From positions 56,815 through 116,174 of the forward strand of contig WHTT01000007.1 in assembly GCA_009377605.1 (NCBI GenBank): a stretch of DNA of 59,360 nucleotides. The letters run 5' to 3'. The position numbers and the translations under genes were made by a program. The stretch comes from Luteitalea sp. (GTDB lineage: Bacteria > Acidobacteriota > Vicinamibacteria > Vicinamibacterales > Vicinamibacteraceae). The notes under the pieces were generated by a model, which saw only the letters and a program-made list of their open reading frames with translations, ran no database searches and was not told the origin of the DNA. Below, one piece after another: positions 29,419 through 54,960 of the stretch (position 1 is its first letter; each line of letters starts with the position of its first letter).

Positions 29419-29936
29419 TGCTTCCCCTCGTCACACTCCTGCTGGTAGCCGTTCCCATGTTGATCGAGACGCGCCGGTCGCGCACGAACGAGCGGTCCTT
29501 GCGCGCAGCCGGCGCGTCCGAGCCGCGAGGCGACGTGTATCCCGTGATGCAGATCGTGTATCCGACGATCTTCGTCGCCATGATTGTGGAGGGCGCGCTG
29601 CGGCACGTGACCTGGTCGGGCATGGCGGCCGCCGGACTCCTTCTCTTCGTCTTTGCGAAAGCCCTGAAGTATGCGGCGATCGCAACGCTCGGCCCGCGTT
29701 GGACGTTCCGCGTGCTCGTGCCTCCCGGCAGCGTGCCGACAAGACGAGGCATCTACCGTTGGCTGCGTCATCCGAACTATATCGGCGTCATGGCTGAGAT
29801 CATTGCCATAGCGCTGATGATGTCGGCGCTCGTGGCGGGCCTGGTATCATCCGTGCTATTTGCCACGATCCTGCGGCGGCGAATTGCCATTGAGGAACGG
29901 GCGCTCGGTGAAACGGGGGACAAGGTGGCGGGGTGA
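29418..29936 (+). CDS. Isoprenylcysteine carboxyl methyltransferase-family protein (2)
   Basis: A 172-residue membrane protein with four to five helices. The signature RHPNYIGVMAEIIAIAL (about 117-133) and the terminal IEERAL segment mark the ICMT fold that binds SAM at the membrane face. The N-terminus begins MLPLVTLLLVAVPMLIETRRSRTNER, as in the type found beside type III polyketide synthases. It overlaps the flavin reductase stop (TGATG). The final residues GDKVAG and the TGA stop are part of the GGGTGACA repeat array. Confidence 0.78.
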   Translation: MLPLVTLLLVAVPMLIETRRSRTNERSLRAAGASEPRGDVYPVMQIVYPTIFVAMIVEGALRHVTWSGMAAAGLLLFVFAKALKYAAIATLGPRWTFRVLVPPGSVPTRRGIYRWLRHPNYIGVMAEIIAIALMMSALVAGLVSSVLFATILRRRIAIEERALGETGDKVAG

Positions 29937-30235
29937 CAGGGTGACGGGGTGACGGGGTGACGGGGTGACGGGGTGACAGGGTGACAGGGTGAGGGGTGAG
30001 ACGGGGGCAGGACGACAGGGTGACAAGTGTGCCAAGGGACAAGGTAAAGAGTGACAATGCACAGCAGCCCGCCCGTGCGCCCGATACGGAGTCTTCCGAT
30101 CGAGCGCAGAACGAGCAATCCGGTTCGACGTCCACCCCGATTACCGAGCCACCCCCTCACCCTGTCACCGTGTCACCGAGTCACCCCCTCACCCCCTCAC
30201 CCCCTCACCCCATCACCCCGTCACCGTCCCACGCC
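29922..30235. repeat. Paired inverted arrays of GGGTGACR octamers
   Basis: Left arm (about 29922-30055): eight or more 8-bp units of GGGTGACG/GGGTGACA, then degenerate units. Right arm (about 30151-30230): the complementary CCCCTCAC/CCCGTCAC units. About 90 nt separate the arms. The left arm contains the stop of the ICMT gene. The right arm is translated in the next gene as a Pro/His/Ser-rich tract. Same family at 37532-37770 and 20985-21016. Confidence 0.85.
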
Positions 30236-31741
30236 CTTCCACGCTGGGCACGAGCGCTCGACGTCATTTCCGCGCTCCTCCTCGTCGTGCTCTGTTCGGC
30301 CGTCCTGCACAACGGCTTTCGGTTGACGATCGCCGATACCCGGATCTCGGCCACGTCGGTGTGGCGAGTGGTGATCCTGTTGCTCGTGGCGGTTGGCGTT
30401 CGGCACGCGATCGTGCGCCGGCCGTCCTGGCTCGCCGACGCACGCGAGCGCGCGCAGCGCTTCTGGCGCGATCCGGCGACCCTGGCAGCCTGGCCAACCT
30501 GGTGGAGCACGCGCTTGACGGTGCTGGTGGCCGCGTACTTCGCCACGCTGATCATTGGGTTCCCCCGAGGTGAGGCGCCGGTCCGGGTGAGCGAGCACGA
30601 GTGGCTGAACTTGCCGGCACGCTGGGATGCGATGTGGTATCTCGGCATTGCCAAGAACGGCTACGAGTACGACTCCGCCACCGGAGGCTACCAGAACGCC
30701 GCCTTCTTTCCGGCATACCCCATGCTCATGCGCGTTGGCGGCGCGTTGCTTGGTGCCGCCGGACGACCAGCGTCGAACGAGTCGTACCTGACGCTGAGCG
30801 AGCGCAGCGATTCGAGCTGGTTGTGGGCTGGCGTCGTGATCTCGCTGTGGAGCTTCTTTCTCGCGCAGCGCTACTTGTTCCGCCTCGGTCGCGAGCTCGT
30901 TCCACGCATGCCGCCCGGAAGCCACGCGCCCGTGACTGCGGCGGGCACCTCTGGCGGCGACGGCAACGAGGCCACCGCGCGCGCGCTCGTACTGCTGGCG
31001 ACGTTCCCGTTCGCGCTGTTCTTCAGCGCGGTTTACACGGAGTCGCTGTTTCTCCTCGGTTCGCTCGGGGCGTTCTATCACTATCGTCGACGGGAGTGGA
31101 TCCAGGCGGCGTCCTGGGGCGCGCTGGTTGGGCTCGTGCGGCCGAACGGCTGCTTCCTGAGCGTGTCACTTGCCCTCATCGGCCTCGCGCTCGCGAAGCA
31201 GATGCGCGCGGAATCGCCTGGGCGCGGATGGGACCTGCGAACGTTGGTGCCCGGCGGCCTCGTCGCTGCCGTGCCAGGCGCGGCGATGCTGGCGCACACG
31301 GCCTGGCTGTACGCCTTGACGGGACAGTGGTTCGCCTGGGCAGAGGCCCAAGAGGCGTGGGGACGCGAATACCTTGGAATCCAGGAGAGCCTAGGACAGT
31401 TCTTCTACGTGTTGCAGTTGCGAGGCGTCGACACGCTGACGCAAAACTCACCTTACGCGTTTCTCAACGCCGCGGCCGCGCTAGGAGCTCTGGCGTGCGC
31501 CTGGCCGGTCGGGCGATGGCTTGGTCTTCCGTATGCGGCGTTTATCTTGCTGAACCTTGGCCCGCCGCTGTTTGCTGGCGGCTTCATGTCCACTGGCCGA
31601 TTGGTGGCAACGCTCTTCCCGGTGTTCCTCTATCTCGGCTGGCGATTGTCCCCGGCAGCATGCCAGCAGTGGGCCACGGTCGCGCTGCTCTTGCAGGGTG
31701 CCTTTGCCGCGATGCACTTCACCTGGCGTCCGCTCGTCTGA
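29996..31741 (+). CDS. PIG-V-like mannosyltransferase (GT-C fold) with repeat-encoded N-terminus
   Basis: A 581-residue polytopic membrane protein with about 9-11 helices after residue 85. It matches the bacterial PIG-V/COG5542 group: WDAMWYLGIAKNGYEYD (about 212-228) corresponds to the aspartate-containing luminal motif, and FFPAYPMLMR and LVRPNG follow. It probably transfers mannose or another sugar from a polyprenyl-phosphate donor on the periplasmic side. The first 83 residues, including a PHPVTVSPSHPLTPSPPHP tract, come from the inverted repeat array. No alternative ATG/GTG exists between the tract and the first helix, so the tract is probably translated; the exact start (GTG 29996 used) is unsure. 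Confidence 0.78.
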   Translation: MRRGQDDRVTSVPRDKVKSDNAQQPARAPDTESSDRAQNEQSGSTSTPITEPPPHPVTVSPSHPLTPSPPHPITPSPSHALPRWARALDVISALLLVVLCSAVLHNGFRLTIADTRISATSVWRVVILLLVAVGVRHAIVRRPSWLADARERAQRFWRDPATLAAWPTWWSTRLTVLVAAYFATLIIGFPRGEAPVRVSEHEWLNLPARWDAMWYLGIAKNGYEYDSATGGYQNAAFFPAYPMLMRVGGALLGAAGRPASNESYLTLSERSDSSWLWAGVVISLWSFFLAQRYLFRLGRELVPRMPPGSHAPVTAAGTSGGDGNEATARALVLLATFPFALFFSAVYTESLFLLGSLGAFYHYRRREWIQAASWGALVGLVRPNGCFLSVSLALIGLALAKQMRAESPGRGWDLRTLVPGGLVAAVPGAAMLAHTAWLYALTGQWFAWAEAQEAWGREYLGIQESLGQFFYVLQLRGVDTLTQNSPYAFLNAAAALGALACAWPVGRWLGLPYAAFILLNLGPPLFAGGFMSTGRLVATLFPVFLYLGWRLSPAACQQWATVALLLQGAFAAMHFTWRPLV

Positions 31742-31873: not shown

Positions 31874-34642
31874 ATGTTCTCCGAAAAAGTGAGATCGGAA
31901 ACCACGCCGGCAGCGGCGACCGCGTCGAGCATCACGTTTGTTCTGTGTGCATGTCTCGGCCTTGCGGCCCTGCTTAGTTCTAGCGCGGCCGCTCACGCGC
32001 GCACCATACAACCTGCCCCCGCACAGCCCACACCTGCGTCTACGTCGCCCACCAGCGCCGCACCTGGAGACGAGCCTCGACAACAGGCAGCACCCGAGAG
32101 CAAAGAGCCTGCACAGTCCGCGCCTTCCAAGCGCACCCCTGTCGAGGTACATCCAGCCGAGCGCGCGCTACTCGAAGGGCGGTTGGACGAGGCGCTGTCG
32201 CTGGTGGCCGACCGGGGGCCCGACGATGCCCTCGGTCTCGTCGTCCGCGGGCGCGTCGCCAAAGCCCGAGGCCGCTTGGATGAAGCGGAGCAGTTGTTCA
32301 CCAGGGGTGCGAAACGTACGCCGGAGGGGGACGCCGCGCTTGAGCTCGGCCTGCTCCTCCTCGCACGTGGCCGGCGCGCCGATGCGGAGGTGGTGCTCGA
32401 TCGCTTGGTTGTCGCCGTCCTCGAGGGTGGCCGCGACGGTCTTGCGCTCGCGCGCGCCGGACGCGCCCGAATGGCGCTGGGTGAGCCACGGCAGGCCAAC
32501 GCGTTGTTTCGGGCGGCGGCGCAAGTAGTCCCTGATCATCCTGCGGTTCATACAGACTGGGGCGAGCTCTTTCTCGAGACGCATAACACGGCCGAGGCCG
32601 TCGGCTCGTTCCAGACTGCGCTGAAGCTCGATCCGCGCTGGAGCCCAGCCATCCTCGGCCTGGCTCGTGCGCACGCCGACGAGAATCCGTCTGCCGCACG
32701 AGAGGCCGCAGCGAAAGCGCTCGCCATCCATCCGTGGCTCGTAGATGCCCATCTGCTGCTCGCGACGCTCGCGATTGACGAGGACGATCTGGAGGGTGGA
32801 CGCGACGCGCTCCGGCGCGCGCGCGTACAGGATTCGACCAACGTCGAAGCGGCGGCGCTCGCAGCGGCCATTCAGTTCATCGAGGATCGAACGAAGGAGG
32901 GGGAGGCCGACCTTGCGCGCGCCCTGGCCGTCAACCCGCAGAACGGCGACGTTCCCCGCATGGTCGGCGAGCGCCTCGCGCGCCAGTACCGGTTCGATGA
33001 GGCGGTTGCGTTTCTACGGCGCGCCGTCGAGCTCGATCCCGAGAACGCACGGGCGCACGGGGCGCTCGGGCTCCACCTGATGCGGACGGGCGACGAAGAC
33101 GCGGCGCGCGCTGTGCTCGAGCGCGCCTTCGAGCTCGATCCCTACGACGTCGTCACGTACAACCTGCTGGGACTGTTGGACACGTTGGCCGGCTTCCAGA
33201 CGGTCCGCGAAGGCGAGCTCCTCGTGCGCATGGACCCCCGTGACCTGTCGGTCCTCCGTGGGTATCTGGTGCCGCTCGCGGAGGAGGCGCTGTCGACGCT
33301 CTCGGCACGGTACGGGTTTACGCCGCAAGGCCCAATTTTGATTGAGGTCTTCCCCAGACACGACGACTTTGCTGTTCGGACGCTGGGCTTGCCCGGGCTC
33401 ATCGGTGGCCTGGGGGCCTGCTTCGGGCGGGTCGTGACCATGGACTCGCCTCGGGCGAGGCCGGCCGGGACGTTCAACTGGGCCGCCACGCTGTGGCATG
33501 AGCTCGCCCATGTCATTACGTTACAGCTCTCGCGGCAGCGGATTCCACGCTGGCTGAGTGAGGGCGTGTCCGTCTTCGAAGAGTCACGCGCGCGGCCCGC
33601 TTCTGGCGGGCCGCTTCGGCGAGGCTCGCCGGAGCGCGAAGCGCAGCAGGGGCAGACTGCTTGGGGTGGCGAGGCCCAGCTCGAGTTCGCGGAGGCGCTC
33701 TCGAAAGGAGAGCTCCAGCCGATCAAGGAGTTGCGCGCCGGGTTCTCGAACCCGAAGACCATTACGCGCACCTATTTCCAGGCATCGCTGGTGGTGGCCC
33801 GGATCGTCGAGAAGTATGGCGACAAAGGGCTTCAGGCGTTCATCCGCGCGTTTGGCGACGGGCTCGACGAGGAGACGGCCTCGCAGCGAGCCTTCGGGGT
33901 CGGCCTGGACGAGCTGCAGCGCGATTTTGACGCGTATGTACAGCGCCGATACGCCGCGGTGCTGCCCGCCCTGCGGTCGCCGGAGGCGAAGCTCCCCATG
34001 AACGGGAGTCCGCAAGGGCTTGCGGCCTTCGCAAATCGGTACGCCGGTCACTATTTTGTCCAGATGGCGATTGCCAGACGTCTGATCAAGAACGACCGTC
34101 CGAATGAGGCGGGGCCGTTGCTCGAGCGCGCCGCCCGCCTGGTTCCGTTTGCAGGCGGCGAGGACGGCCCTCAGGCGCTCTTGGCGAATCTCGCGGCGAA
34201 GGCAGGGCGAAAAGACGCGGCGCTGAAGCATCTCGACGAGCACCTGGTGCGGGACCACACGAGCATCGAGCCGGTACGGCAGTTGCTTCAGATCGCGCAA
34301 GAGCAGGGCGATGAGGCACGGCTCGATCGGGCGGCCAGCCGGCTCATCGAGATCGCTCCGTTCGATCCAGAGCTGCACTCGACCCTCGGTCGTCTCGCCC
34401 TCGGCCGAGGTGACTTCCAGACGGCGGTGCGCGAGCTGCAGACGGCAATTGACGCCGGTCCGTCGGACGTTGCCGCGGCGCATACGGAGCTGGCGGAGGC
34501 GTACTGGCAGGCGGGCCGCCCCGCCGAGACGAAGAAGCACGTCATTGCGGCGCTCGAGGTGGCGCCGCGATTCGAGCGGGCGCAGGAGCTGTTGCTCGCC
34601 GTGGTCGATGGTGAGGCGCCCAAGAAAGAGGTTAGGGAGTAG
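31874..34642 (+). CDS. TPR protein with embedded gluzincin metallopeptidase (peptidase MA-like)
   Basis: A 922-residue protein. A signal-peptide-like N-terminus (hydrophobic about 20-42) is followed by a Pro/Ala/Ser linker and about nine tetratricopeptide repeats to residue 430. The protease domain has His542-Glu543-x-x-His546 (WHELAHVITL) and the third ligand Glu563 (WLSEGVSVFEE), the gluzincin arrangement of peptidase MA. More TPRs run from about 735 to 915. An insert SGGPLRRGSPEREAQQGQ after residue 575 looks repeat-derived. First gene of an eight-gene operon; the TPRs probably hold partners in the periplasm while the zinc site cleaves or clamps a substrate. Its target is unknown. Confidence 0.85.
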   Translation: MFSEKVRSETTPAAATASSITFVLCACLGLAALLSSSAAAHARTIQPAPAQPTPASTSPTSAAPGDEPRQQAAPESKEPAQSAPSKRTPVEVHPAERALLEGRLDEALSLVADRGPDDALGLVVRGRVAKARGRLDEAEQLFTRGAKRTPEGDAALELGLLLLARGRRADAEVVLDRLVVAVLEGGRDGLALARAGRARMALGEPRQANALFRAAAQVVPDHPAVHTDWGELFLETHNTAEAVGSFQTALKLDPRWSPAILGLARAHADENPSAAREAAAKALAIHPWLVDAHLLLATLAIDEDDLEGGRDALRRARVQDSTNVEAAALAAAIQFIEDRTKEGEADLARALAVNPQNGDVPRMVGERLARQYRFDEAVAFLRRAVELDPENARAHGALGLHLMRTGDEDAARAVLERAFELDPYDVVTYNLLGLLDTLAGFQTVREGELLVRMDPRDLSVLRGYLVPLAEEALSTLSARYGFTPQGPILIEVFPRHDDFAVRTLGLPGLIGGLGACFGRVVTMDSPRARPAGTFNWAATLWHELAHVITLQLSRQRIPRWLSEGVSVFEESRARPASGGPLRRGSPEREAQQGQTAWGGEAQLEFAEALSKGELQPIKELRAGFSNPKTITRTYFQASLVVARIVEKYGDKGLQAFIRAFGDGLDEETASQRAFGVGLDELQRDFDAYVQRRYAAVLPALRSPEAKLPMNGSPQGLAAFANRYAGHYFVQMAIARRLIKNDRPNEAGPLLERAARLVPFAGGEDGPQALLANLAAKAGRKDAALKHLDEHLVRDHTSIEPVRQLLQIAQEQGDEARLDRAASRLIEIAPFDPELHSTLGRLALGRGDFQTAVRELQTAIDAGPSDVAAAHTELAEAYWQAGRPAETKKHVIAALEVAPRFERAQELLLAVVDGEAPKKEVRE

Positions 34643-34698: not shown

Positions 34699-35532
34699 AT
34701 GTGGCATCGGGTCGAGAGGTCTGGGCCCTGGTTGCTGACACTTGCAGCGGCGCTATGGCTGTTCGCAACGGGCGGCTCGGTGCGGCTGGCGGATGCGCAA
34801 GAGCCCAGCTCCCTCACGACCGACCTGGAAGTGCCGGACGCGCGTTTTGCTGGGTTGCGGTGGCGCTTCACGCGCCTTCGTTACAACTCGCACCACATGG
34901 ACACTGCGATGTACCGCGCTCGCTACTGGAGCGATCCCTGGTCCGTCGATGGTCCCGCCTCCGAACAGAACCTCTCGCGGCGCATTCGTACGGTGACGGC
35001 AATCCAGGTGGATGAGCCCACGGTTCTCACGTTGGAGGACCCGGAGCTTTGGAACAATCCCTGGGTCTACATCGTCGAGCCCGGGACGCTCAGGCTGCAG
35101 GAGAGCGAGGTGCCGATCCTCCGTGAGTTCCTCCTGCGCGGCGGCACGGCCGTGCTCGACGACTTCCACGGGCCCATGGAGTGGGAGAACGTCGAGAGAG
35201 AGCTGAAGCGCGTGTTTCCGGACCGGCCCATCGTGGAGCTGCCGCCGGAGCATCCCGTGTTTCATTGCTTTTACGACTTGGACGAGTATCCCCAGGTGCC
35301 CGGCATCGGCTCCTTCATGCGAGGGCGGATGTGGGAGAAGGGCGGCATCGAGCCGAAGCTCCGCGCCGTCGTCGACGACTACGAGCGTGCGATGGTGCTG
35401 ATCAACTGGAATACGGACATGGGCGATGGGTGGGAGTGGTCGAATGCCGAGGAGTGGCCCGGCTACCTCGTCCACACCGCGAACGCCTACAGGATGATGA
35501 TTAACGAAGTGATCTACTCGCTGACGCATTGA
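34699..35532 (+). CDS. DUF4159 secreted protein
   Basis: A 277-residue protein. Residues 1-34 are a signal peptide (hydrophobic LLTLAAALWLFATGG, then ADAQ). The rest matches DUF4159: RFTRLRYNSH, LTLEDPELWNNPWVYIVEPG, LLRGGTAVLDDFHGPMEW, VELPPEHPVFHCFYDL. The fold is thought to resemble class I glutamine-amidotransferase-like domains, but I see no catalytic triad. DUF4159 genes regularly travel with MoxR, DUF58 and BatA genes, as here. Function unknown; probably a periplasmic partner of the membrane complex. Confidence 0.88.
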   Translation: MWHRVERSGPWLLTLAAALWLFATGGSVRLADAQEPSSLTTDLEVPDARFAGLRWRFTRLRYNSHHMDTAMYRARYWSDPWSVDGPASEQNLSRRIRTVTAIQVDEPTVLTLEDPELWNNPWVYIVEPGTLRLQESEVPILREFLLRGGTAVLDDFHGPMEWENVERELKRVFPDRPIVELPPEHPVFHCFYDLDEYPQVPGIGSFMRGRMWEKGGIEPKLRAVVDDYERAMVLINWNTDMGDGWEWSNAEEWPGYLVHTANAYRMMINEVIYSLTH

Positions 35533-35611: not shown

Positions 35612-36633
<1,022 letters not shown>

Positions 36634-36637
<4 letters not shown>

Positions 36638-37554
36638 GCGACCATGCCGCGCCCTCGTCACGGTTTCTCCTGCCAGCCGTGGTGGCCGGCCTTGGCACGC
36701 TGGATCTCAAAGCACGAACAGTCGTCGAAGGTCTGATGCAGGGACTGCACCGGAGTCCCTTCCGCGGGTACAGCGTCGAGTTCGCAGAGTACCGCCAGTA
36801 CCTGCCGGGCGACGACCTCGCGACCGTGGATTGGAAGGTGTACGCACGTACGGACCGTCACGTTGTACGAAAGTACGAGGACGAGCGGAATCTCGACTGC
36901 CACCTGCTCGTGGACGTCAGCGCGTCGATGGGCTACGGTGGTCGTGCTGGCATGACGAAGCTGCAGTATGCCTCCTGCTTGGCGGCGTCGGTAGCGTATC
37001 TGTTGCAGCGACAGCACGATGCCGTCGGCCTGGTGACCTTCGATCATCGGATAGTCACACGCATCGCTCCCAGCGCGAGACGTGGCCACGTCCATACGCT
37101 CCTCGTCGCGCTCGAACGTGCGCAGGTGGGGACGCAATCGAATCTCGCGGGCCCGCTCGAGGCGCTCGCAGCGTCGATCGCTCGCCGCGGCCTCATCATG
37201 ATCTTCAGCGATCTCTTGCACGAGCCGACTCCAGTCCTCCGATCGCTGAGGTATGTCCGCTCGCGCGGGATGGAGGTCGTCGTCTTCCAGGTGCTCGATC
37301 CAGACGAGCTGACGTTTCCCTTCGAAGGGGCGGCGCGCTTTCACGATGTCGAGTCGGCTGACGAGGTCCTTGCTGATCCGGGGCGGGCGCGGGAGGGATA
37401 TTTGCGGCAGATGGACGAGCTGACCCGCACCTATCAACGAGAGTTGCGCGGGGCGGACATCGACTACCAGCTCGTCGACACATCGCGACCCCTGGACGTG
37501 ACGCTCTTGAGGTATCTGGCGAGCCGCGGAGGTGGTGACAAGGTGACAAGGTGA
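36634..37554 (+). CDS. DUF58 protein (VWA-like)
   Basis: A 306-residue cytosolic protein. The DUF58 signature YRQYLPGDDLATVDWKVYARTD (about 53-74) is present, followed by the VWA-type metal site motif DVSASMG at 94-100. It probably binds the MoxR ATPase and its membrane partners. The C-terminal residues GGDKVTR and the TGA stop are repeat-encoded; the normal family C-terminus ends near LLRYLASR. Note that ICMT 2 ends in the very similar GDKVAG for the same reason. Confidence 0.92.
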
Positions 37555-37794: not shown

Positions 37795-39672
37795 ATGCTG
37801 TCGTTCCTGTCCCCGTGGTTCTGGCTTGGCGCGCTCGCCGTCGCGGTGCCGTTCGTGCTGCACCTGCTCCGGCGAGAGGAAGCGCGGCGCCTGCGGTTCA
37901 CCGCCGTGCGGTTCATCGAGCGGACGCCCGTGCTGTTCCGCGCACGCCGACGTCCATCGGACTGGCTGTTGCTCGCGCTTCGAATGGCTGCCGTGCTGTT
38001 GCTGGCAGTGGCGTTCGCACGACCGTATCTCCAGGGACAATTCGCGGCGACTCCGGCGACCATCGTGGCTGTGGACGTTTCATACAGTATGGACGCACCG
38101 GGTCGCTTCGAGGCGGCGCGCAAGCGGGCGGCCGAGGCCATTCGTGACGTGGCGGGAGGGAGCGCGGTTGGCCTGGTTGCATTCGATGACCGCGCGCGGA
38201 CCGTTGTGGAGCCGATCGACGACCGCAGTGTCGCAGTCGCCGGTCTCGACCGGCTGCGCGCGGGCGCTCGCGGCACCAACTATCGCGGCCTCTTGGATCA
38301 CGTGGATTCGCTCCTGGCTGGCCGGCCCGGACGACTCGTCGTGGTGACGGACTTGCAGCGGGAAGGGTGGGCAGCCGGCCACGCGACCACGAGAAGCGAG
38401 CTACCGGTGGCGGTCGAGGATGTCGGGGGGCCCGTCGAGAACGTCGCCATTACCGCGGCCGAGCGCACGGCCACCGGCGTACGAGCGATCGTCCAAAACT
38501 TTGGGACACGTCCGCGTGAGACGGTTGTGCAACTGACGGTGGAGGATGGGGAGGTGCTCGGTGACCGAGCCGTCACCGTTCCGCCGGGGCGCGCTCTCCC
38601 TGCTGAGATTCGGGCGTCGGTGCCGGCACGGGGTGTCGCCCGCGTGGCGCTCGAAGATCTCGAAGGGCTGCCTGCGGACGATGAGCGAGTGTTTCTCCTC
38701 GACGGCCCGGCCCCAGCGCGTCTCCTGGCGATCGTCGGCGGGACGGGCACCTCGTCGCGCGTGTTCTATCTCCAGCGTGCGCTCGAAGCGGCATCGGCGG
38801 GCGGCGAATCGGGGCTCGAGGTGTTGGGTGCGACTGCAGCGCGGGAGCTCAGCGCAGAAAAGCTTCAGGACGCCGACGTGGTGTTGCTGCTCGGGACAGC
38901 CGGTGTCGATCGTGGCTTGGGCGGGCGCTTGCGCGACTACGCGAGCCGTGGTGGCCGCGTGCTGATGGCCATTGGCCCCGACGCCGATGCGGGCGTCGTG
39001 TCGAGCTTGCTCGCCGCCGCAGGCGCCGCTGTCACCCCGGGCGATCCCGATCGCTTTCCTGTGACACTGGCACCGCTCGATGCACGCCATCCTGTCTTCG
39101 AAGCGTTTGGTGAGTCGGCGGGGGGGCTCATGCGCGTCCGGTTCGACCGGGCGGCGCACGTCGAGGCCAATGGGTCGGCGCGCGTGTTGGCCCAGTTCAC
39201 CAACGGATGGCCCGCCTTGGTCGAGCTGCCACTGGGCGACGGGCGGGTGCTGCTCTTTGCCTCGGACTTGAACTTGGCGTGGAACGACTTCCCGGTACAC
39301 GCCGCGTTCGTCCCGTTCGTGCACGAGATCACGCAGTATCTCGCACGCGAACGACGAGACGAGTCCGACTGGCTGCTGCGAGATGTGCCACCCGAGCAGG
39401 CGGATCGGCCGGGGGCGTTCGCCATCGGGCCGCGCGGCCGCCGCGTGGCCTTGAACGTCGACGTGAGTGAGTCACTGCTGGATCGTGAGTCGATCGAGGG
39501 CTTTCAGTCTCATGTGCGGCAGGCGCCCGGAGCCCGGGAAGCGGCGGTCGGTCGGGCCGAGCGCGGCACCGAGTCGAGCCAAGCGCTCTGGCGCTATGTG
39601 CTCATACTGCTGGCCGGGTTGTTGGTGGTCGAGAGCCTGGTCGCACGCCGGCGCGTGACGTATCAAGGGTAG
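37795..39672 (+). CDS. BatA-type membrane protein with VWA domain
   Basis: A 625-residue protein. The N-terminal helix pair with LSPWFWLGALAVAVPFVLHLLRREEARR and LRFTAVRFIER is the aerotolerance BatA N-terminal domain; a second helix lies at about 57-76. The VWA metal site DVSYSMD is at 94-100. Then come a CARDB-like beta region (about 195-290) and a class I GATase-like region (about 300-520). A last helix lies at about 598-618. It is anchored in the inner membrane with the bulk in the periplasm. Part of the MoxR operon. Confidence 0.88.
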   Translation: MLSFLSPWFWLGALAVAVPFVLHLLRREEARRLRFTAVRFIERTPVLFRARRRPSDWLLLALRMAAVLLLAVAFARPYLQGQFAATPATIVAVDVSYSMDAPGRFEAARKRAAEAIRDVAGGSAVGLVAFDDRARTVVEPIDDRSVAVAGLDRLRAGARGTNYRGLLDHVDSLLAGRPGRLVVVTDLQREGWAAGHATTRSELPVAVEDVGGPVENVAITAAERTATGVRAIVQNFGTRPRETVVQLTVEDGEVLGDRAVTVPPGRALPAEIRASVPARGVARVALEDLEGLPADDERVFLLDGPAPARLLAIVGGTGTSSRVFYLQRALEAASAGGESGLEVLGATAARELSAEKLQDADVVLLLGTAGVDRGLGGRLRDYASRGGRVLMAIGPDADAGVVSSLLAAAGAAVTPGDPDRFPVTLAPLDARHPVFEAFGESAGGLMRVRFDRAAHVEANGSARVLAQFTNGWPALVELPLGDGRVLLFASDLNLAWNDFPVHAAFVPFVHEITQYLARERRDESDWLLRDVPPEQADRPGAFAIGPRGRRVALNVDVSESLLDRESIEGFQSHVRQAPGAREAAVGRAERGTESSQALWRYVLILLAGLLVVESLVARRRVTYQG

Positions 39673-39673
39673 A

Positions 39674-39712
39674 CGGTCCTTGGTCCTTGGTCCTTGGTCC
39701 AAGAACCTAGAG
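39674..39712 (+). repeat. GGTCCTT heptamer array
   Basis: Three to four units of GGTCCTT followed by an inverted ccaagaacc end, directly before the AGAGGGAG ribosome site of the DUF4175 gene. Confidence 0.7.
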
Positions 39713-39718
39713 GGAGCG

Positions 39719-42700
39719 ATGAGCAATCGCGGGCCTACATTTCTGACGGTGCTAGAGGAGGTCCGACGCCGCTGGCGGCGCGTCGCCTGGCTGCGTCTGT
39801 CGACCCAGCTGCTGCTGCTTGCCGCGGGAGCCCTTCTCCTGCTGGCAATCATCGACCGGCTGCTTGCGCCGACCAGCGGTCGTTTGGTCGTGCTGGCCGC
39901 CGTGATTGCCATGAGCGCGGCCGTTGTCGGCGCATACCGCGCCTGGCCGCTTCGGCGCCAGCCAGCCGATCGCGACGTCGCACGCCTCGTCGAGGAGCGC
40001 TGTCCAGGCTGCGAACAACGCCTCGTGAGCGCGATCGATGCCGGAACGAGCCCTCTTCGACCACTGTTGGAGAAAGATGCGACGCGAGTTGCAGCGGCGC
40101 TCGACCTCGAGCAGGTGGTGCCCCGAGCGCGCATGCGGACAGCGGCACGCGGTCTCGCGCTGGCGCTGGTAGCCGTGGCTGCAATTGGGCTCCTGTCGCG
40201 AGATGCCGTGATTCGTGCCGGGCGTGCGGCGTGGTTCGTCGTGCGGCCGCCTGTGATCACGGTGACGGTCACCCCGGGTCATGCGCGTATCCCTCTGAAC
40301 GATCCTCTGACCATTCGAGCCCAGATCAGCGGTGTGCCGCGTGGAGTAGATCTCCCCATGCCAGAGCTCCGCGTGAGCGCCGGCACCGAGCGCCGGGCCG
40401 AGCGCATGAAGCGATCCGACGGAGGCCGCTTCGAGCTCCATCTCCCAAAGGTGACTCGCGGTTTCACCTACCAGGTGGCTGCTGGCTCCATCGCGTCAGG
40501 TGAGTACCGCGTCGAGGCGTTACCGCGCCCGCGCGTAACCCGCGTCGTCGTGGACTACACGTATCCGTCGTTCACCGGCCTCGCGCCCCGGGTCGTTGAC
40601 GACAGTGGCGACGTGTACGCGCCCGCGGGCACCGAGATTCGCCTGCGCGTGCATACGAACAAGTCTCTTGCGGCGGCGACGTTTGTGAGAACTGATGCAA
40701 AGCGGACCACGCCCATGCGCGTGGTGACGGATACCGTTGCCGAGACGGCCTTCACGCTCGATCGGAACGGTGCGTATCGCGTCGCCTTGCGTGACCGTGA
40801 TGGCTTGTCCAGCCCTGGGGACACCGAGTTCTTCCTGCGGGTGGTCGACGACCGTCCGCCCGAGGTCCGCATCGTTCGTCCAGAGGGAGACCGCACGGTG
40901 ACGCGGCTGGAGGAAGTGGCTATCGAAGCGCGCGCGGATGATGACTACGGCATTGACGAGTTCGAGCTCGTGTACGCGGTCCGCGGCGAGAAGGAGCGGC
41001 GCATTGCGCTCGCAGGCGCGAAAGACGACGCCGACTCGGCGGGCGACCGGCGAGGCGCGTCGGTGACCGGCGGCCACACGCTCTTCCTCGAGGAGCTGGA
41101 CGTTCAACCAGGTGACTTCGTCTCCTACTACGCGCGCGCGGTCGATGTTGGCCGTGGGAAGCGGCCGACCGAGGCACGCAGCGATATCTTCTTTCTCGAG
41201 GTCCGGCCGTTTGCCGAGGAGTTCGCGGCTGCGCAGAGTCAGGCCATGGCGATGGCCGGTGGTGGTGGCGGGCTCAAGGATCTCGCGGCGGCGCAGAAGG
41301 ATCTGATCATTGCGACCTGGAAGCTCGAGCGCCGGGCAAACGGCGGCCAGTCGACGCAGGACATCCGCGCCTTGGGACGCGCACAGGCGGAGCTGCGCGA
41401 CCAGGCGGCGCAGCAGGCGGCACGCGCGAGCTTCGGCGGGCTTCGCCGCCAACGGGATGGCGATGATGACGATGACCAGGCGGGCGCGCGGCTGCCCATT
41501 GCACGGGCGGTGGAGGCGATGTCACGCGCTGCCGAGGCGCTGAGCAAACAGCAGACATCCGCAGCGCTCCCGCACGAGATGGAGGCGTACAACCAGTTGC
41601 TGCGAGCGGGCGCCGACGTGCAGCGCCGGCTCGTGGCACGCCAACAGGGGGGCGGTCGCGGCGGTGGCCGCAGCGGGACCGAAGATCTCTCGGCATTGTT
41701 CGACCGTGAGCTGCTGCGCGAGCAGACCACGAACTACGCGCAGCAGAGCACGGCGAGTCAGGCGTCCGAGTCGCGCGAGTCCTCGGCGCTCGAGCGCCTC
41801 CGCGAGCTCGCGCGCCGCCAGGATGATCTGGCTCGAGCCCAGCGAGAGCTCGCACGCAATCGGGCGCGCACCAACGATGAAGAGGTCAAGCGGCACCTCG
41901 AGCGGCTCACGCGCGAGCAAGAAGAGCTCGAGCGCCAGGCCAGGGAGCTTGCGCGTGAGCTGGACGAGCAGCGGACCGGTGGAGAGGGGCAGGAGGCGGG
42001 TCAGAGCGCTGAGGAGCAGGAGTCCCCTTCTGCGTCTGGTGGGAGGGCGGCGGACGACAGCGCGGCGCGGCGAGGTGAGAGGGGCGAGCCGGACGGTGAC
42101 CAACGGCAGGCGGACGCCACACGTGATGCTCGCGCTGGCGCCGGCGGTCTCACCGAGGCCATGCGACGCGCGCTCGAGGACATGCGGCAGGCGACACGTG
42201 GTTTGCGAGACGCCGATGTCGGCGCGGCGGCGAGTCGGAGCGAGCGGTCGCTCGCCCGGCTGCGGGAGGCCGAGCGTGCGCTCGGTGGTTCGTCGCCGCG
42301 CCGAGACGAAGCGTCCGAGAAGCTTTCCGAGCAGCTCGCCAGGGCACAGGACCTGCGGAAGCGGCTCGCGGAGATCGATCAACGTCTGTCGGCGGAATCA
42401 GGCTTGCCTGGCCGTAGCTCGCCGGGCCGTGGCTCGCCGGAGGCGAGCGAAGGCCGGCAGTCCGGTGGCTCCAATGGCGGCGCCCGCGACAAGCTGGCGG
42501 CGCTTCGTGCCGAGCGTGATCGCTTGCTGCGCGAAGCGCAATCACTGGTGGACAATCAGGGCCGAGGCAGTCAGGAGGGGGCGGCTGGCGGCGGGACACC
42601 GGAGCGCCAGGAGTTCAGTCGATCCGCGCCGGGCACTGAGGCCTTCAAGCAGGACTTCTCCGAATGGGACGCCCTCCGCAAGGATGTCATCACCGCGCTC

Positions 42701-42856
42701 GAGGCGCTCGAGCTCTCGCTGTCCGAACAGCTCGCCGAGCGCGATGCTCGAAACCGGCTGAACGCAGGCGGCGATGAGCGCACACCGGAGCGCTATAGCG
42801 AGTCGGTGGCACGCTACTATCGGTCGATCGCACGCAAGCCGGGGCCCGGAGAATGA
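39719..42856 (+). CDS. DUF4175 membrane protein with long coiled coil
   Basis: A 1045-residue protein. Two helices lie near residues 25-75 and another at about 140-160. A beta-rich periplasmic region (about 175-500) follows. Residues about 500-1000 are Glu/Arg/Ala/Gln-rich coiled coil and low-complexity segments (LERLRELARRQDDLARAQREL, then EELERQARELARELDEQ). This is the DUF4175 architecture found in MoxR operons. It may form a long periplasmic or cytosolic scaffold. The start at 39719 follows AGAGGGAGC; an upstream in-frame ATG lies in the repeat. Stop and next start overlap (ATGA). Confidence 0.87.
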   Translation: MSNRGPTFLTVLEEVRRRWRRVAWLRLSTQLLLLAAGALLLLAIIDRLLAPTSGRLVVLAAVIAMSAAVVGAYRAWPLRRQPADRDVARLVEERCPGCEQRLVSAIDAGTSPLRPLLEKDATRVAAALDLEQVVPRARMRTAARGLALALVAVAAIGLLSRDAVIRAGRAAWFVVRPPVITVTVTPGHARIPLNDPLTIRAQISGVPRGVDLPMPELRVSAGTERRAERMKRSDGGRFELHLPKVTRGFTYQVAAGSIASGEYRVEALPRPRVTRVVVDYTYPSFTGLAPRVVDDSGDVYAPAGTEIRLRVHTNKSLAAATFVRTDAKRTTPMRVVTDTVAETAFTLDRNGAYRVALRDRDGLSSPGDTEFFLRVVDDRPPEVRIVRPEGDRTVTRLEEVAIEARADDDYGIDEFELVYAVRGEKERRIALAGAKDDADSAGDRRGASVTGGHTLFLEELDVQPGDFVSYYARAVDVGRGKRPTEARSDIFFLEVRPFAEEFAAAQSQAMAMAGGGGGLKDLAAAQKDLIIATWKLERRANGGQSTQDIRALGRAQAELRDQAAQQAARASFGGLRRQRDGDDDDDQAGARLPIARAVEAMSRAAEALSKQQTSAALPHEMEAYNQLLRAGADVQRRLVARQQGGGRGGGRSGTEDLSALFDRELLREQTTNYAQQSTASQASESRESSALERLRELARRQDDLARAQRELARNRARTNDEEVKRHLERLTREQEELERQARELARELDEQRTGGEGQEAGQSAEEQESPSASGGRAADDSAARRGERGEPDGDQRQADATRDARAGAGGLTEAMRRALEDMRQATRGLRDADVGAAASRSERSLARLREAERALGGSSPRRDEASEKLSEQLARAQDLRKRLAEIDQRLSAESGLPGRSSPGRGSPEASEGRQSGGSNGGARDKLAALRAERDRLLREAQSLVDNQGRGSQEGAAGGGTPERQEFSRSAPGTEAFKQDFSEWDALRKDVITALEALELSLSEQLAERDARNRLNAGGDERTPERYSESVARYYRSIARKPGPGE

Positions 42857-45165
42857 CATTCGCGTGGCCGCTCCCGTGGTGGGTCATTGCCGCCTGGATC
42901 GTTGTCGCCGTGGCAGTGGCGCTGGTGACCTACGCGCGTGTGGTACCGCCACTGTCGCCGGCGCAACGTGCCGGCCTCATCGCGCTGCGGATCGCGGCGC
43001 TGGTGCTGCTCCTCGTCTTCATCCTCCGACCGGTTGTCGCGCGGCAGGAGCCTCCCGGCACGGGCCGACGTGTGGCGGTGCTGCTGGACACATCGCGCAG
43101 CATGGGATTAGCCGACGCCGGCGACGGCGTGACGCGCCTGGCTGCCGCGCAGGCGCTCGTGCGCAAGGCGCTCCTCCCGGCCCTTCGAGACCGCTACGAC
43201 GTCGAGCTCTTCGGCTTCGATCGCACGCTGAGACGCCGTTCGCTCGAGGAGCTGACGGCCGCGGGTCCACTGACGGACGTCGTCGGCGCCGCCCGCCTCG
43301 TGAGAACCAGAACCGGCGACGCTCAGCCGGTGGCGATGGTGGTCGTCTCCGATGGCGGCCAGACGGGTGACCCGAGTCTCCGTCGGCTCATCGAGCCAGG
43401 CGCGCCCGTCTTTGCGGTGCCCATCGGGGCCAGCCGTATCGCGCGCGATCGCGAGATCATGGCGGCCAGTATCGGTGAGGCGCGGGTCGAGGGCGCAATC
43501 GTGGAGCTCTCCGCGACGCTCGTGAGCCGTGGCTTCGGTACACGCCCTGTGGAGCTCCGTGTTCTCGAAAACGGCCGGCCCACTCAGGTTCGGCGGGTTG
43601 CACCACCGCAGGACGGCGCGGCGACGACCGAGCTCTTTCGTGTGTCACCGGCGCGGGACCGACCGACCGTCTACACGGTCGAAGTGCCGCCGGCCGATGG
43701 TGAGCTGACCGATGCGAACAACCGCCGCAGTGTGATCGTTCCGCCGGCGGGCAGGCGGCGCTCTGTGTTGCTCGTCGAGGGCGCGCCTGGGTTCGAGCAC
43801 ACGTTCTTGAAGCGTGCCTGGTCGCACGACCCGGCTCTGGAGCTGGACTCGGTCGTGCGCAAGGGTCGCGACGACAACGGAGCCGCGACCTATTACGTGC
43901 AGGCTCGTCCTCCACGTGTCGCCGCGCTCCGCTCCGGCTATCCCACCTCACTCGAAGCGCTGTTTGCGTACGACGTCATCGTGCTCGCCAACATGACCGC
44001 GAGTCAGCTGACACGAAACGAGGCAGAGTGGACCGCCGCGTTCGTGGAAAAGCGTGGGGGCGGCCTGCTGGTGCTGGGCGCGCGCGCGTTCGCGGCGGCG
44101 GGCCTTCGGGGCACGCCCGTCGAAACGGTGTTGCCCGTGGACTTTTCGGGGCGTGTCGCGGCGCCCGGAGAAGTCAGCGCGCGTGCGCCTGGCCCGGTTC
44201 GACTCACGCCTGCAGGCGAACGGCATCCAGTCACGCAGCTCGCGGCGTCGCGCGAGGCGAGCCAACGCCAGTGGACGGAGCTTCCACCGCTGTCTGCGGC
44301 CGCTGGGATGGGACAGCCGCGGCCCGGCGCTCAGGTGCTCGCCCTCGCCGAAGGCGCGGGGGGCGACGAGCGCCCGCTCGTCGCGGTGCAGCACTACGGG
44401 CGGGGACGGACGCTGGCCTTCGGCGGCGAAGCGTCATGGCGGTGGCGAATGCAGTTGCCGTCCAGCAATCGAGCTTACGAGACCTTTTGGCGTCAGGTAG
44501 GGCGATGGCTGGCCACTGGGGCGCCCGATCCTGTCTCGGTGACCGTGACGCCGGTATCGCCGGGGGTTGCAGCGCCGTTGACGGTGCAGGTGTTCGACGC
44601 TCGGTTCGAGCCGGTCGCTGATGCGGTCGTTCGCATTCGAATTACGGGCCCCGACGGTCTGTCACGAGAGCTCAGGGCCGTTCCCGCCGAAGCGTCGGCA
44701 GGCGTGTACAGGACGAGCTTCATCCCGACGACATCCGGCACATACGACGTCCGTGTGGTGGCGGAGCGTGGTTCTGGGGCCTCTGGTGAGAAGGCAGGGT
44801 CGGCCGAAGCGGATCAGCCGACGATCCGTCGAGCTCGCTCGGAGACGCAGGCCGATGTCGACGAGAAGACCGATAGCTCCCGATTGGGTGAGGCGCGCGA
44901 ATGGCTGCTGGTAGGCGGAGCAGACCCAGAGATGGCAGACCCGCGGCGCAATGATGCGGTGCTCGAGCGGCTCGCCGAATCGACTGGAGGGCGCCTGCTT
45001 GGTGCCAACGAGCTGGCGCAGTTGCCGGCGTTGATTGCCGCGAGCACTTCGTCGTCCGGCGTGTGGGTGCAGCGCGAGCTGTGGCACAACCCGTGGACGT
45101 TCTTGCTGGTCGCGGCGCTGCTGTGCACCGAATGGGCATTGCGACGCCGTTGGGGGCTCCGGTGA
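42853..45165 (+). CDS. Membrane VWA protein with glutamine-amidotransferase-like domain
   Basis: A 770-residue protein. Helices lie at about 8-28 and 42-60. The VWA-like domain begins at LLDTSRSMG (Asp79-x-Ser81-x-Ser83) and continues to about 220. A beta-sandwich region (about 225-310) and a class I GATase-like region (about 310-530, with VEKRGGGLLVLGARAF and YGRGRTLAFGGEASWRW) follow, then another beta domain and a final helix (about 748-764). No catalytic Cys of true GATases is visible in the nucleophile position, so the domain is probably structural. It overlaps DUF4175 by 4 nt and the caspase-like gene by 4 nt (GTGA). Confidence 0.86.
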   Translation: MTFAWPLPWWVIAAWIVVAVAVALVTYARVVPPLSPAQRAGLIALRIAALVLLLVFILRPVVARQEPPGTGRRVAVLLDTSRSMGLADAGDGVTRLAAAQALVRKALLPALRDRYDVELFGFDRTLRRRSLEELTAAGPLTDVVGAARLVRTRTGDAQPVAMVVVSDGGQTGDPSLRRLIEPGAPVFAVPIGASRIARDREIMAASIGEARVEGAIVELSATLVSRGFGTRPVELRVLENGRPTQVRRVAPPQDGAATTELFRVSPARDRPTVYTVEVPPADGELTDANNRRSVIVPPAGRRRSVLLVEGAPGFEHTFLKRAWSHDPALELDSVVRKGRDDNGAATYYVQARPPRVAALRSGYPTSLEALFAYDVIVLANMTASQLTRNEAEWTAAFVEKRGGGLLVLGARAFAAAGLRGTPVETVLPVDFSGRVAAPGEVSARAPGPVRLTPAGERHPVTQLAASREASQRQWTELPPLSAAAGMGQPRPGAQVLALAEGAGGDERPLVAVQHYGRGRTLAFGGEASWRWRMQLPSSNRAYETFWRQVGRWLATGAPDPVSVTVTPVSPGVAAPLTVQVFDARFEPVADAVVRIRITGPDGLSRELRAVPAEASAGVYRTSFIPTTSGTYDVRVVAERGSGASGEKAGSAEADQPTIRRARSETQADVDEKTDSSRLGEAREWLLVGGADPEMADPRRNDAVLERLAESTGGRLLGANELAQLPALIAASTSSSGVWVQRELWHNPWTFLLVAALLCTEWALRRRWGLR

Positions 45166-46490
45166 CGGAGGTTCGAGGTACGAGGTTCGAGGTACGAGGT
45201 TCGAGGTACGAGGTACGAGGTTCGAGGTACGAGGTTCGAGGTTCGAGGGGACAGGGGCGAGGTGCGAGGTCGGGGGTTGGAGGCGCGACGTACGCGGCAC
45301 GACAGGCGGGCTTTACAGAACATGGCCGAAAGCTGTGTCTTTCCACACTTCTGGCCGTGGCTTCGTGCCTGTTCGTACCGGCAGACGGCCGTTCGCTAGT
45401 CGTTGGTCCTGGCCCTGCGGATCCCCAAGCTGAAACCTCGAATCTCCAACCTCCACCCTCCGACCTCGACCCTCAAGCCACCGACCAACCTCCAGCCTCG
45501 AACCTCGAACCTCGAACCTCGAACCTCGAACCTCGAACCTCGAACCTTGAACCTCGAACCTCGAACCTTGAACCTCGAACCTCCGTCCCCTCTTCGCATG
45601 CATTGATCATCACTGGTGCCCCAGGGAGCGAGGAGCATCGGGGACAACAGCGCAAGTGGCGCGAGGCACTCGTGAAAGCGCTCGGTGAGCGTCACGGGAT
45701 GCCCAGCGAGCGAATCATCGCGCTCTCGGCAGATGCCCCAGAGGCCGAGATGCGGTCCACCCGCACGGCCGTGCGCCGTGTGCTCGGTGACCTCGCGTCG
45801 CGGGTGAGCGCTACAGACGTGCTGCTTATCGTATTGATGGGGCACTCCAGCTTCGACGGCGTGGATGCAAAGTTCAATCTCGTGGGTCCGGACTTGGAGG
45901 CTCACGAGTGGAACCGATTGTTGGCGCCAATCGCCGGCCGCATCGTCTTCGTGAACACCACAGGCGCGAGCTCCCCGTTTCTCGCGAGGTTGGCAGGGCG
46001 TAACCGGGTGATCATTGCTGCGACGCACACGCCGGCCCAGAAGTACGACACGGTGTTCCCGGAGTTCTGGGTGGAGGCGCTCGGGAACGCGGGAACCGAT
46101 CTGGATCGTAACGGCCGGATCTCCATCTGGGAGGCATTTGCTCGAGCGAGCAGCGGCGTGAGGCGTTGGTACGATCAGCAAGGGCAGCTTGCGACCGAGC
46201 GCGCCGTGCTCGACGATACCAATGACGGTACCGGGCGCGATGTTGCGACCGAAGGCGAGGATGGGCTGTTGGCAAGCCGCACGTTCCTCGATGCTGAACC
46301 GGCCATGGCCAGCGGTGATCCGACGGTGGCGGTACTAGTGAGCCGGCGCGATCAGCTCGAGTTGGAGTTGGACGAGCTGAAGCGCAAGCGCAGCTTCATG
46401 CCTCCAGGAGACTACGAGCAAGAGCTGGAGCGCGTCCTCATCGACATCGCACGCGTGTCACGGGAGATTCGGAGGAAGGCAAAGAGTTGA
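45162..46490 (+). CDS. Caspase-like fold protein with repeat-encoded tracts, catalytic Cys not evident
   Basis: A 442-residue protein. Start GTG at 45162 overlaps the upstream stop as GTGA. Residues about 3-30 (EVRGTRFEVRGSRYEVRG) and about 110-145 (NLEPRTSNLEPRTS) are translated repeat arrays of opposite orientation; a hydrophobic segment LSTLLAVASCLFVPADG lies between them like a displaced signal peptide. Residues about 148-400 look like a caspase/legumain-type fold: HALIITGAPGSEEH, DVLLIVLMGHSSFDG with His228, then IVFVNTTGASSPF where a catalytic Cys would be expected near Thr267. The usual Cys is replaced, so it may be a pseudo-enzyme. A basic coiled-coil tail ends it. Last gene of the MoxR operon. 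Confidence 0.7.
   Translation: MTEVRGTRFEVRGSRYEVRGSRYEVRGSRGQGRGARSGVGGATYAARQAGFTEHGRKLCLSTLLAVASCLFVPADGRSLVVGPGPADPQAETSNLQPPPSDLDPQATDQPPASNLEPRTSNLEPRTSNLEPRTSNLEPRTSVPSSHALIITGAPGSEEHRGQQRKWREALVKALGERHGMPSERIIALSADAPEAEMRSTRTAVRRVLGDLASRVSATDVLLIVLMGHSSFDGVDAKFNLVGPDLEAHEWNRLLAPIAGRIVFVNTTGASSPFLARLAGRNRVIIAATHTPAQKYDTVFPEFWVEALGNAGTDLDRNGRISIWEAFARASSGVRRWYDQQGQLATERAVLDDTNDGTGRDVATEGEDGLLASRTFLDAEPAMASGDPTVAVLVSRRDQLELELDELKRKRSFMPPGDYEQELERVLIDIARVSREIRRKAKS
45168..45592. repeat. Paired inverted AGGTTCG/AGGTACG arrays inside a gene
   Basis: Left arm 45168-45250: about ten 8-9 bp units of gaggttcg or gaggtacg. Right arm 45431-45592: about fifteen units of cctcgaac, the complementary sequence, less regular at its start. 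The 180-nt spacer is part of the caspase-like gene. Both arrays keep the reading frame open. Confidence 0.88.
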
Positions 46491-54753: not shown

Positions 54754-54960
54754 CCGTAGCGCAGGCCTTTGGAGCCTGTGAAGAATTCCTCGTAGTAGCG
54801 CAGTAGCGCAGGCCTTTAGGCCTGCCAACGCCGCAATGGCGCAGGCCTTTAGGCCTGCCAACGCCGCAATGGCGCAGGCCTTTAGGCCTGCCAACGCCGC
54901 AATGCGCAGGCCTTTAGGCCTGCCGACGCCGCAATGGGCAGGCCTGAAGGCCTGCGCTAC
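54754..54960. repeat. Tandem array of 33-34-bp GCAGGCCTTTAGGCCTGC units
   Basis: One degenerate copy (54754-54772) and four close copies of a unit made of the 18-bp palindromic core plus a caacgccgcaatg spacer, closed by an inverted copy (54937-54960). The inverted copy carries the TAG stop of pstS on the minus strand. Each core can form a hairpin between pstS and pstC, where it could limit readthrough or stabilise pstS mRNA, as expected for differential expression of the binding protein. Confidence 0.85.

Follow-up and report, generated by a model that had tools for sequence, protein, structure and literature searches.

The DNA analysed here is a stretch of 59,360 nt from Luteitalea sp. (contig WHTT01000007.1, positions 56,815 to 116,174 of the forward strand; hereafter the window), and one of its genes encodes a caspase-like protein of 442 amino acids that is without the expected cysteine and is probably exported (45162..46490; this and all other window features described below lie on the + strand). 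The GTG start codon of this gene (45162-45164) shares bases with the TGA stop codon (45163-45165) of the preceding gene, as an earlier note on this DNA had stated. The note had also described two opposite translated arrays, with a hydrophobic segment between them, ahead of the fold. We read the same order in frame: an EVRGTRF/EVRGSRY array, the hydrophobic segment, an NLEPRTS array and finally the domain.

The caspase-like nature of the domain, likewise proposed in the note, agrees with structure prediction and with comparison to metacaspase-4 and legumain. Residues 145-442 (45594..46490) form a predicted caspase/legumain-like fold with a C-terminal helical extension. The AlphaFold2 model, which was built from 54 sequences, has a predicted local distance difference test score (pLDDT) of 92.9 and a predicted template modelling score of 0.88, and its closest solved structures are metacaspase-4 (Z 21.4; 2.9 A, 212 residues) and legumain (Z 20-21). 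Matches to metacaspases and legumains at Z 17-21, across about 200 residues, place it in the alpha/beta caspase-hemoglobinase fold of clan CD. In the full-length model, the pLDDT is below 60 before residue ~140, and a short helix (54-67) marks the hydrophobic core.

At the sequence level, the family profile detects metacaspase-4 (E 9e-6); it also aligns with 15 proteins of the same phylum (E 9e-18), found via the C14 family, which carry a D-x-C-type motif and are assumed to be active on the strength of that motif. The window protein itself gave no Pfam match at E 0.1, and so none to C13 or C14 above the curated cut-off, and no NCBIfam match; Pfam Peptidase_C13 matches 21 of 44 family members at E values of up to 0.5 (the best 1e-7). 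The domain also contains an EF-hand-like loop, DLDRNGRISIWE (D313-E324; 46098..46133), recognised by sequence conservation, in which the first D is invariant and the last E is kept in 99% of 116 homologues. The EF-hand models of Pfam give weak matches in 12 of the 44 members. Many genomes of the order (G007, G013, G029, G032, G043 and others) carry, in addition, a second, more distant caspase-like paralogue with ~33-42% identity.

The note had placed the putative catalytic histidine in GHSSFDG, and had read the nucleophile position as NTTGASS, without a Cys. Both statements hold for the window protein, and residue conservation was counted over a set of 144 Acidobacteriota homologues. His228 (codon 45843..45845), at the position of the caspase catalytic His, is invariant (144/144), and within the site of the missing Cys (NTTGASSPF, residues 265-273; 45954..45980) S270 is kept in 142 homologues, with Ala in the other two. 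Positions 267-269 of the window protein are T, G and A. None of the 144 homologues has a Cys at 267 or 268, and eight, all of them distant members, have one at 269; position 267 varies between T, A, S and G, and 268 varies freely. The possibility that near orthologues have retained the Cys was rejected, as none has. Since D244, D313 and E346 do not vary across the orthologues aligned, and His228 and S270 are conserved as described, a polar site has been kept.

Both profile alignments (with metacaspase-4 and with the 15 sequences) assign the Cys to G268 and match the Ser of C-x-S-G with S270; the end of the strand in the model would place the Cys at T267, and the eight distant members have it at 269. 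Judging from the aligned sequences, the window protein and its near orthologues are without Cys in all three registers. A register derived from two caspases alone was gapped and different, and was superseded by the 15-sequence profile.

In distant homologues (L177, L181, L185, L187 and L278-L281) a Cys stands one residue ahead of the conserved Ser (TxCSG), and these proteins are possibly active, or may reflect an Ala/Cys exchange. The Cys-bearing members do not form one clade in the midpoint order of the tree of the 144 homologues, in which L001 represents the window, whose own row was removed as a duplicate, and in which the rooting was not read. All four of the Cys-bearing loci checked lie in a gene run of the same kind, and Ala occupies the Cys position in L178, which stands among the Cys-bearing members in the tree listing; for these reasons the Cys seems unneeded for the role of the family.

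Array 1 (45168..45270; Tandem Repeats Finder score 127) is made of the G-rich heptamers GAGGTTC/GAGGTAC and is translated as (EVRGTRF)n, an extended n-region, while array 2 (45434..45584; score 167) is made of the inverse heptamers GAACCTC and is translated as (NLEPRTS)n, a low-confidence linker between signal peptide and fold. Both greatly exceed what chance would give: in the genome, the exact 21-nt pattern GAGGTNC x3 has 45 copies and its reversed control has none; the G runs in units such as GAGGTTC are no longer than GG. Together the arrays form a convergent pair (45161..45590) with the potential to fold into a long hairpin in the mRNA leader: the arms 45161-45263 and 45488-45590 are inverted and 85% complementary across 103 nt, and the minimum free energy of the RNA is -280.1 kcal/mol (z -14.3). 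The congener with which the within-genus comparison was made (locus L002, genome G001; the genome of the window is G000) has GAGGGGC-type arms in the same layout at the same junction, and its leader hairpin (z -4.7) is composed of repeat units unlike those of the window. The unit size counts against the suggestion of the note that the repeats could serve as a length-variable linker, since a single 7-bp unit gained or lost shifts the frame and the protein is kept only by multiples of three units.

Seven being 1 mod 3, a pure 7-mer array gives one heptapeptide whichever of the three frames is read, and open frames across the arrays are therefore no evidence of translation by themselves. The evidence that the arrays are translated is the start codon and the signal peptide. 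Among 88 loci (the window and its relatives, some loci being present twice), 78 show the xTG/TGA overlap of the start with the upstream gene, and a signal-peptide-like stretch follows the start in the orthologous loci listed. From start to fold, the orthologous loci have a median of 32 codons; the gene in the window has 144 and that of the congener 68.

The hydrophobic core of the signal peptide (residues ~57-74, KLCLSTLLAVASCLFVPA; 45330..45383) is a hydropathy maximum in frame 0 only, the best 13-residue value being 2.32 in the frame of the domain versus 0.72 and 0.45 in the other frames. The maximum is restricted to the frame of the domain in the congener as well, and a comparable hydrophobic stretch is present in orthologues. 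The view of the note that this segment is a displaced signal peptide thus gains support from in-frame hydropathy and from the orthologue starts; by hydropathy, both congeners would have a putative Sec signal peptide, with an n-region of ~56 residues in the window protein. No ATG, GTG or TTG occurs in frame from array 1 to the hydrophobic core; with the usual start codons, use of the signal peptide therefore requires that array 1 be translated.

Orthologues from the sister genus have no arrays at this junction. Short repeats are present in the same N-terminal stretch of at least three other orthologues of the order (L079, L114 and L069). Those of L079 (AAATCCC-type units) and L114 (GAATTC-type units) form a single array or a local palindrome, with no separated pair. 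The third locus (L069:2884-3000) carries a convergent octamer pair (GAATGCA-type / TTCTGCAT-type), from which come the hydrophobic core itself (LFCILAFLHFCIL) and a portion of the n-region; the inverted arms of 24 nt score 20, whereas the best of 20 shuffles reached 11. A further locus (L026:1162-1500) has about three tandem copies of a stretch comprising the end of the upstream gene and the start of the caspase-like gene (GACGSSLRRVGIAAPVGAAMNRA).

A survey of ~460 kb of the window's genome (400 kb plus the window) revealed that the arrays at the locus belong to a class of convergent 7/8-mer pairs that is dispersed and mostly intergenic, and are not specific to this gene. The commonest tandem periods were 8 and 7. 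A reverse-complement partner was found within 350 bp downstream of the G-rich arm for 33 of 47 G/C-skewed 7/8-mer arrays, and upstream for none; as a pair may be counted from both sides, the 33 arrays correspond to roughly 20 pairs. About 40 of 51 arrays were intergenic, though ~79% of the DNA is coding according to the rough gene caller, which missed the caspase-like gene (the longest open reading frame (ORF) overlaps the neighbour by 102 nt), and the two arrays of this gene were counted as intergenic although they belong inside it. The repeat units are genome-specific: GAGGTTC x3 occurs 29 times in G000 and once in G001, and GAGGGGC x3 twice in G000 and eight times in G001. Identity with a miniature inverted-repeat transposable element was considered and rejected, since the spacers of 12 pairs share only short weak matches.

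Dispersed G-rich heptamers, located mostly between genes, have been described in Xanthomonas, two genomes of which contain 70 and 75 close convergent pairs (Rehm et al. 2015, PMC4692102). The pairs found here are likewise built of short G-rich tandem units, dispersed, convergent and mainly intergenic, and their fixed polarity corresponds to the convergent orientation reported for Xanthomonas. As the architecture is the same, what is unusual about the two opposite arrays is their location, the kind of element being already known. The units differ from those of Xanthomonas, and one pair here flanks a signal peptide within the 5' end of a coding region. The tandem repeats of Borgs (PMC9879509) also turn DNA repeats into disordered protein stretches and are enriched in proteins with signal peptides; all of their coding units are divisible by three, whereas the units described here are of 7 bp.

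The gene run that leads up to the caspase-like gene consists of genes for a TPR/peptidase-MA protein (31874..34642), which also adjoins the homologue in other loci, a DUF4159 protein (34699..35532; PF13709, 1.6e-40), a MoxR AAA+ ATPase (35612..36637; PF07726, 9e-64), a DUF58 protein (36634..37554; PF01882, 7e-49), a BatA/VWA membrane protein (37795..39672; PF07584 and PF13519), a DUF4175-like membrane protein (39680..42856; PF13779, 5e-11; its true start is probably downstream of the listed TTG) and a VWA/GATase1-like membrane protein (42853..45165; PF07090, 1.1e-9), the conserved upstream neighbour. The caspase-like gene is followed by a convergent gene, putatively encoding a rhomboid, a name given from reading its sequence. 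In 72 of 80 loci the caspase-like gene adjoins the VWA/GATase gene, in 7 it adjoins the TPR gene, and four distant loci have homologues of the VWA, MoxR, DUF58, DUF4159 and TPR genes within 12 kb, in a different order. Neighbour domains and the 72 loci therefore sustain the link to a MoxR system that the note had drawn. The MoxR protein matches the bpMoxR model at 1.4e-9 but AAA_3 at 9e-64. No third component of a MoxR-vWA system (VMAP, inactive STAND, FtsH or beta-propeller) was present among the Pfam matches of the neighbours, although no search was aimed at these components, and the literature collection searched contained no paper joining MoxR, caspase and Acidobacteria.

The window protein resembles type II metacaspases (Arabidopsis metacaspase-4) and legumain (peptidase C13) of clan CD in its fold, in the His of the GH motif and in the remnant of a C-x-S-G loop after the fourth strand. 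It differs from them in having no Cys at any possible position, in its predicted signal peptide and C-terminal helical hairpin, and in being itself unrecognised by Pfam. Caspase-fold proteins without an intact dyad are already known, as 84% of putative bacterial metacaspases keep the Cys-His dyad, and Ser is a common replacement for the Cys (Asplund-Samuelsson 2012, PMC3501461). The substitutions reported there are scattered over groups, whereas the present case is a single family, found across a phylum and linked to one gene run, in which the His is retained and the Cys is missing. Caspase-like domains also occur with MoxR and VWA in the MoxR-vWA ternary conflict systems, where ~70% of those in effector position are inactive (PMC7159879). 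In those variable systems the caspase domains are fused, whereas the protein described here is separate, probably exported, and encoded beside BatA, DUF58 and DUF4159.

We consider it probable that the gene belongs to a MoxR/VWA operon and encodes a caspase-like protein that is exported and without the Cys, and that has received neutral or mildly regulatory repeat insertions. It would be the Vicinamibacteraceae member of an Acidobacteriota-wide, Sec-exported family with a caspase/legumain fold and no conserved catalytic Cys, encoded in the MoxR-DUF58-BatA-VWA-DUF4159 gene run. Because the Cys is missing while the polar site is kept, binding seems a more plausible function than cutting: outside the cytoplasm, the protein may serve the MoxR/VWA machinery as a non-proteolytic component that binds a peptide or protein, perhaps in contact with MoxR. 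The pair of arrays, which lies inside the 5' end of the gene because the genes overlap and leave no intergenic gap, was most likely neutral, or mildly regulatory, when it entered. Arm 1, which separates the start codon from the signal-peptide core, would have given rise to a long translated n-region, and arm 2, between signal peptide and fold, to a probably disordered translated linker, while the hairpin predicted in the leader of the mRNA may lower translation or make the transcript more stable. Several points weigh against this reading. The case is built on sequence and predicted structure, and the comparison within the genus comprises one congener. At the nucleophile, the alignment register could be off by one residue in either direction. 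An n-region of 56 residues is long for a Sec signal peptide, and export might fail or the segment might remain as an anchor. Moreover, the near-invariance of His228, S270, D244, D313 and E346 exceeds the needs of a plain scaffold, and a ligand site or unusual chemistry is possible.

The note had left the choice between a pseudo-enzyme of the MoxR system and a member of a new Ser/Thr-containing subgroup, and the former fits better. The latter would be a Ser-His hydrolase on a caspase scaffold, with S270, or T/S at 267, as the nucleophile acting with His228. The retention of S270 and His228 in 142 and 144 of the homologues and the conserved acidic residues (D244, D313, E346) favour such an enzyme, yet S270 aligns in two profile alignments with the structural Ser of C-x-S-G and not with the Cys, position 267 is T, A, S or G, 268 varies freely, and two homologues have Ala at 270; we regard the hydrolase as improbable. 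We give similarly little credence to the bold proposal that, in these Acidobacteriota, spreading convergent pairs repeatedly enter zero-gap junctions and become parts of export signals (arm 1 as n-region; arm 2 as linker or, as in L069, even as core), ahead of a caspase fold in which a His/Ser site replaces the Cys chemistry.

With regard to the arrays, it is possible, if rather unlikely, that the pair is a regulatory hairpin that controls translation of the operon or mRNA stability, with its own translation being incidental, an explanation compatible with an exported, Cys-less member of the MoxR/VWA operon. Hairpins in two species with unlike units (z -14.3 and -4.7) and a convergent polarity fixed genome-wide (33 to 0) speak for such a role; however, the arrays are missing at the junction in most orthologues, the polarity is strand-symmetric and hence independent of gene direction, and the spacers have no common sequence. 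A phase switch, in which slippage by one 7-bp unit would change the frame and thereby switch the exported protein on or off, might be suspected from the long, partly perfect heptamer arrays in a coding region, from a unit length not divisible by 3, and from the unequal leader lengths of the two congeners. Both species are in frame, however, most similar arrays are intergenic, where the frame is irrelevant, and the sister-genus orthologues have no arrays, which makes such a switch very unlikely. Finally, translation might begin after array 1, at GTG 45357 (in frame, residue 66), and yield a cytosolic protein, array 1 then being an ordinary intergenic element, as similar arrays mostly are. Such a start would split the hydrophobic core and still keep array 2 within the protein, while orthologues retain the start overlap and the signal-peptide-like stretch; we hold it to be highly unlikely.

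A phylum-wide family of Cys-less caspase-fold proteins on one gene run is a target for asking what the MoxR/BatA operons of Acidobacteriota do, and how caspase folds function in the absence of catalysis. The array pair, in turn, indicates how dispersed intergenic repeats can turn into protein sequence at overlapping genes, and the two congeners, with unlike units in one layout, constitute a natural experiment.

Repeats were also noticed elsewhere. In the window, an ORF at 29996-31741 has a convergent octamer pair at its start region (29913-30025 and 30143-30225), the C-rich arm of which would read PHPVTVSPSHPLTPSPPHPITPSPSH, shortly ahead of a transmembrane-like stretch. Within a 7.8-kb ORF, a heptamer array (L227:6788-6886) reads PEPRTSNLEPQTSPVAPRPSPLAP in a linker-like region. 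The window also contains a 33-bp tandem array (54799-54955; 4.8 copies, 93% matches), with a AGGCCTTTAGGCCT palindrome in its unit.

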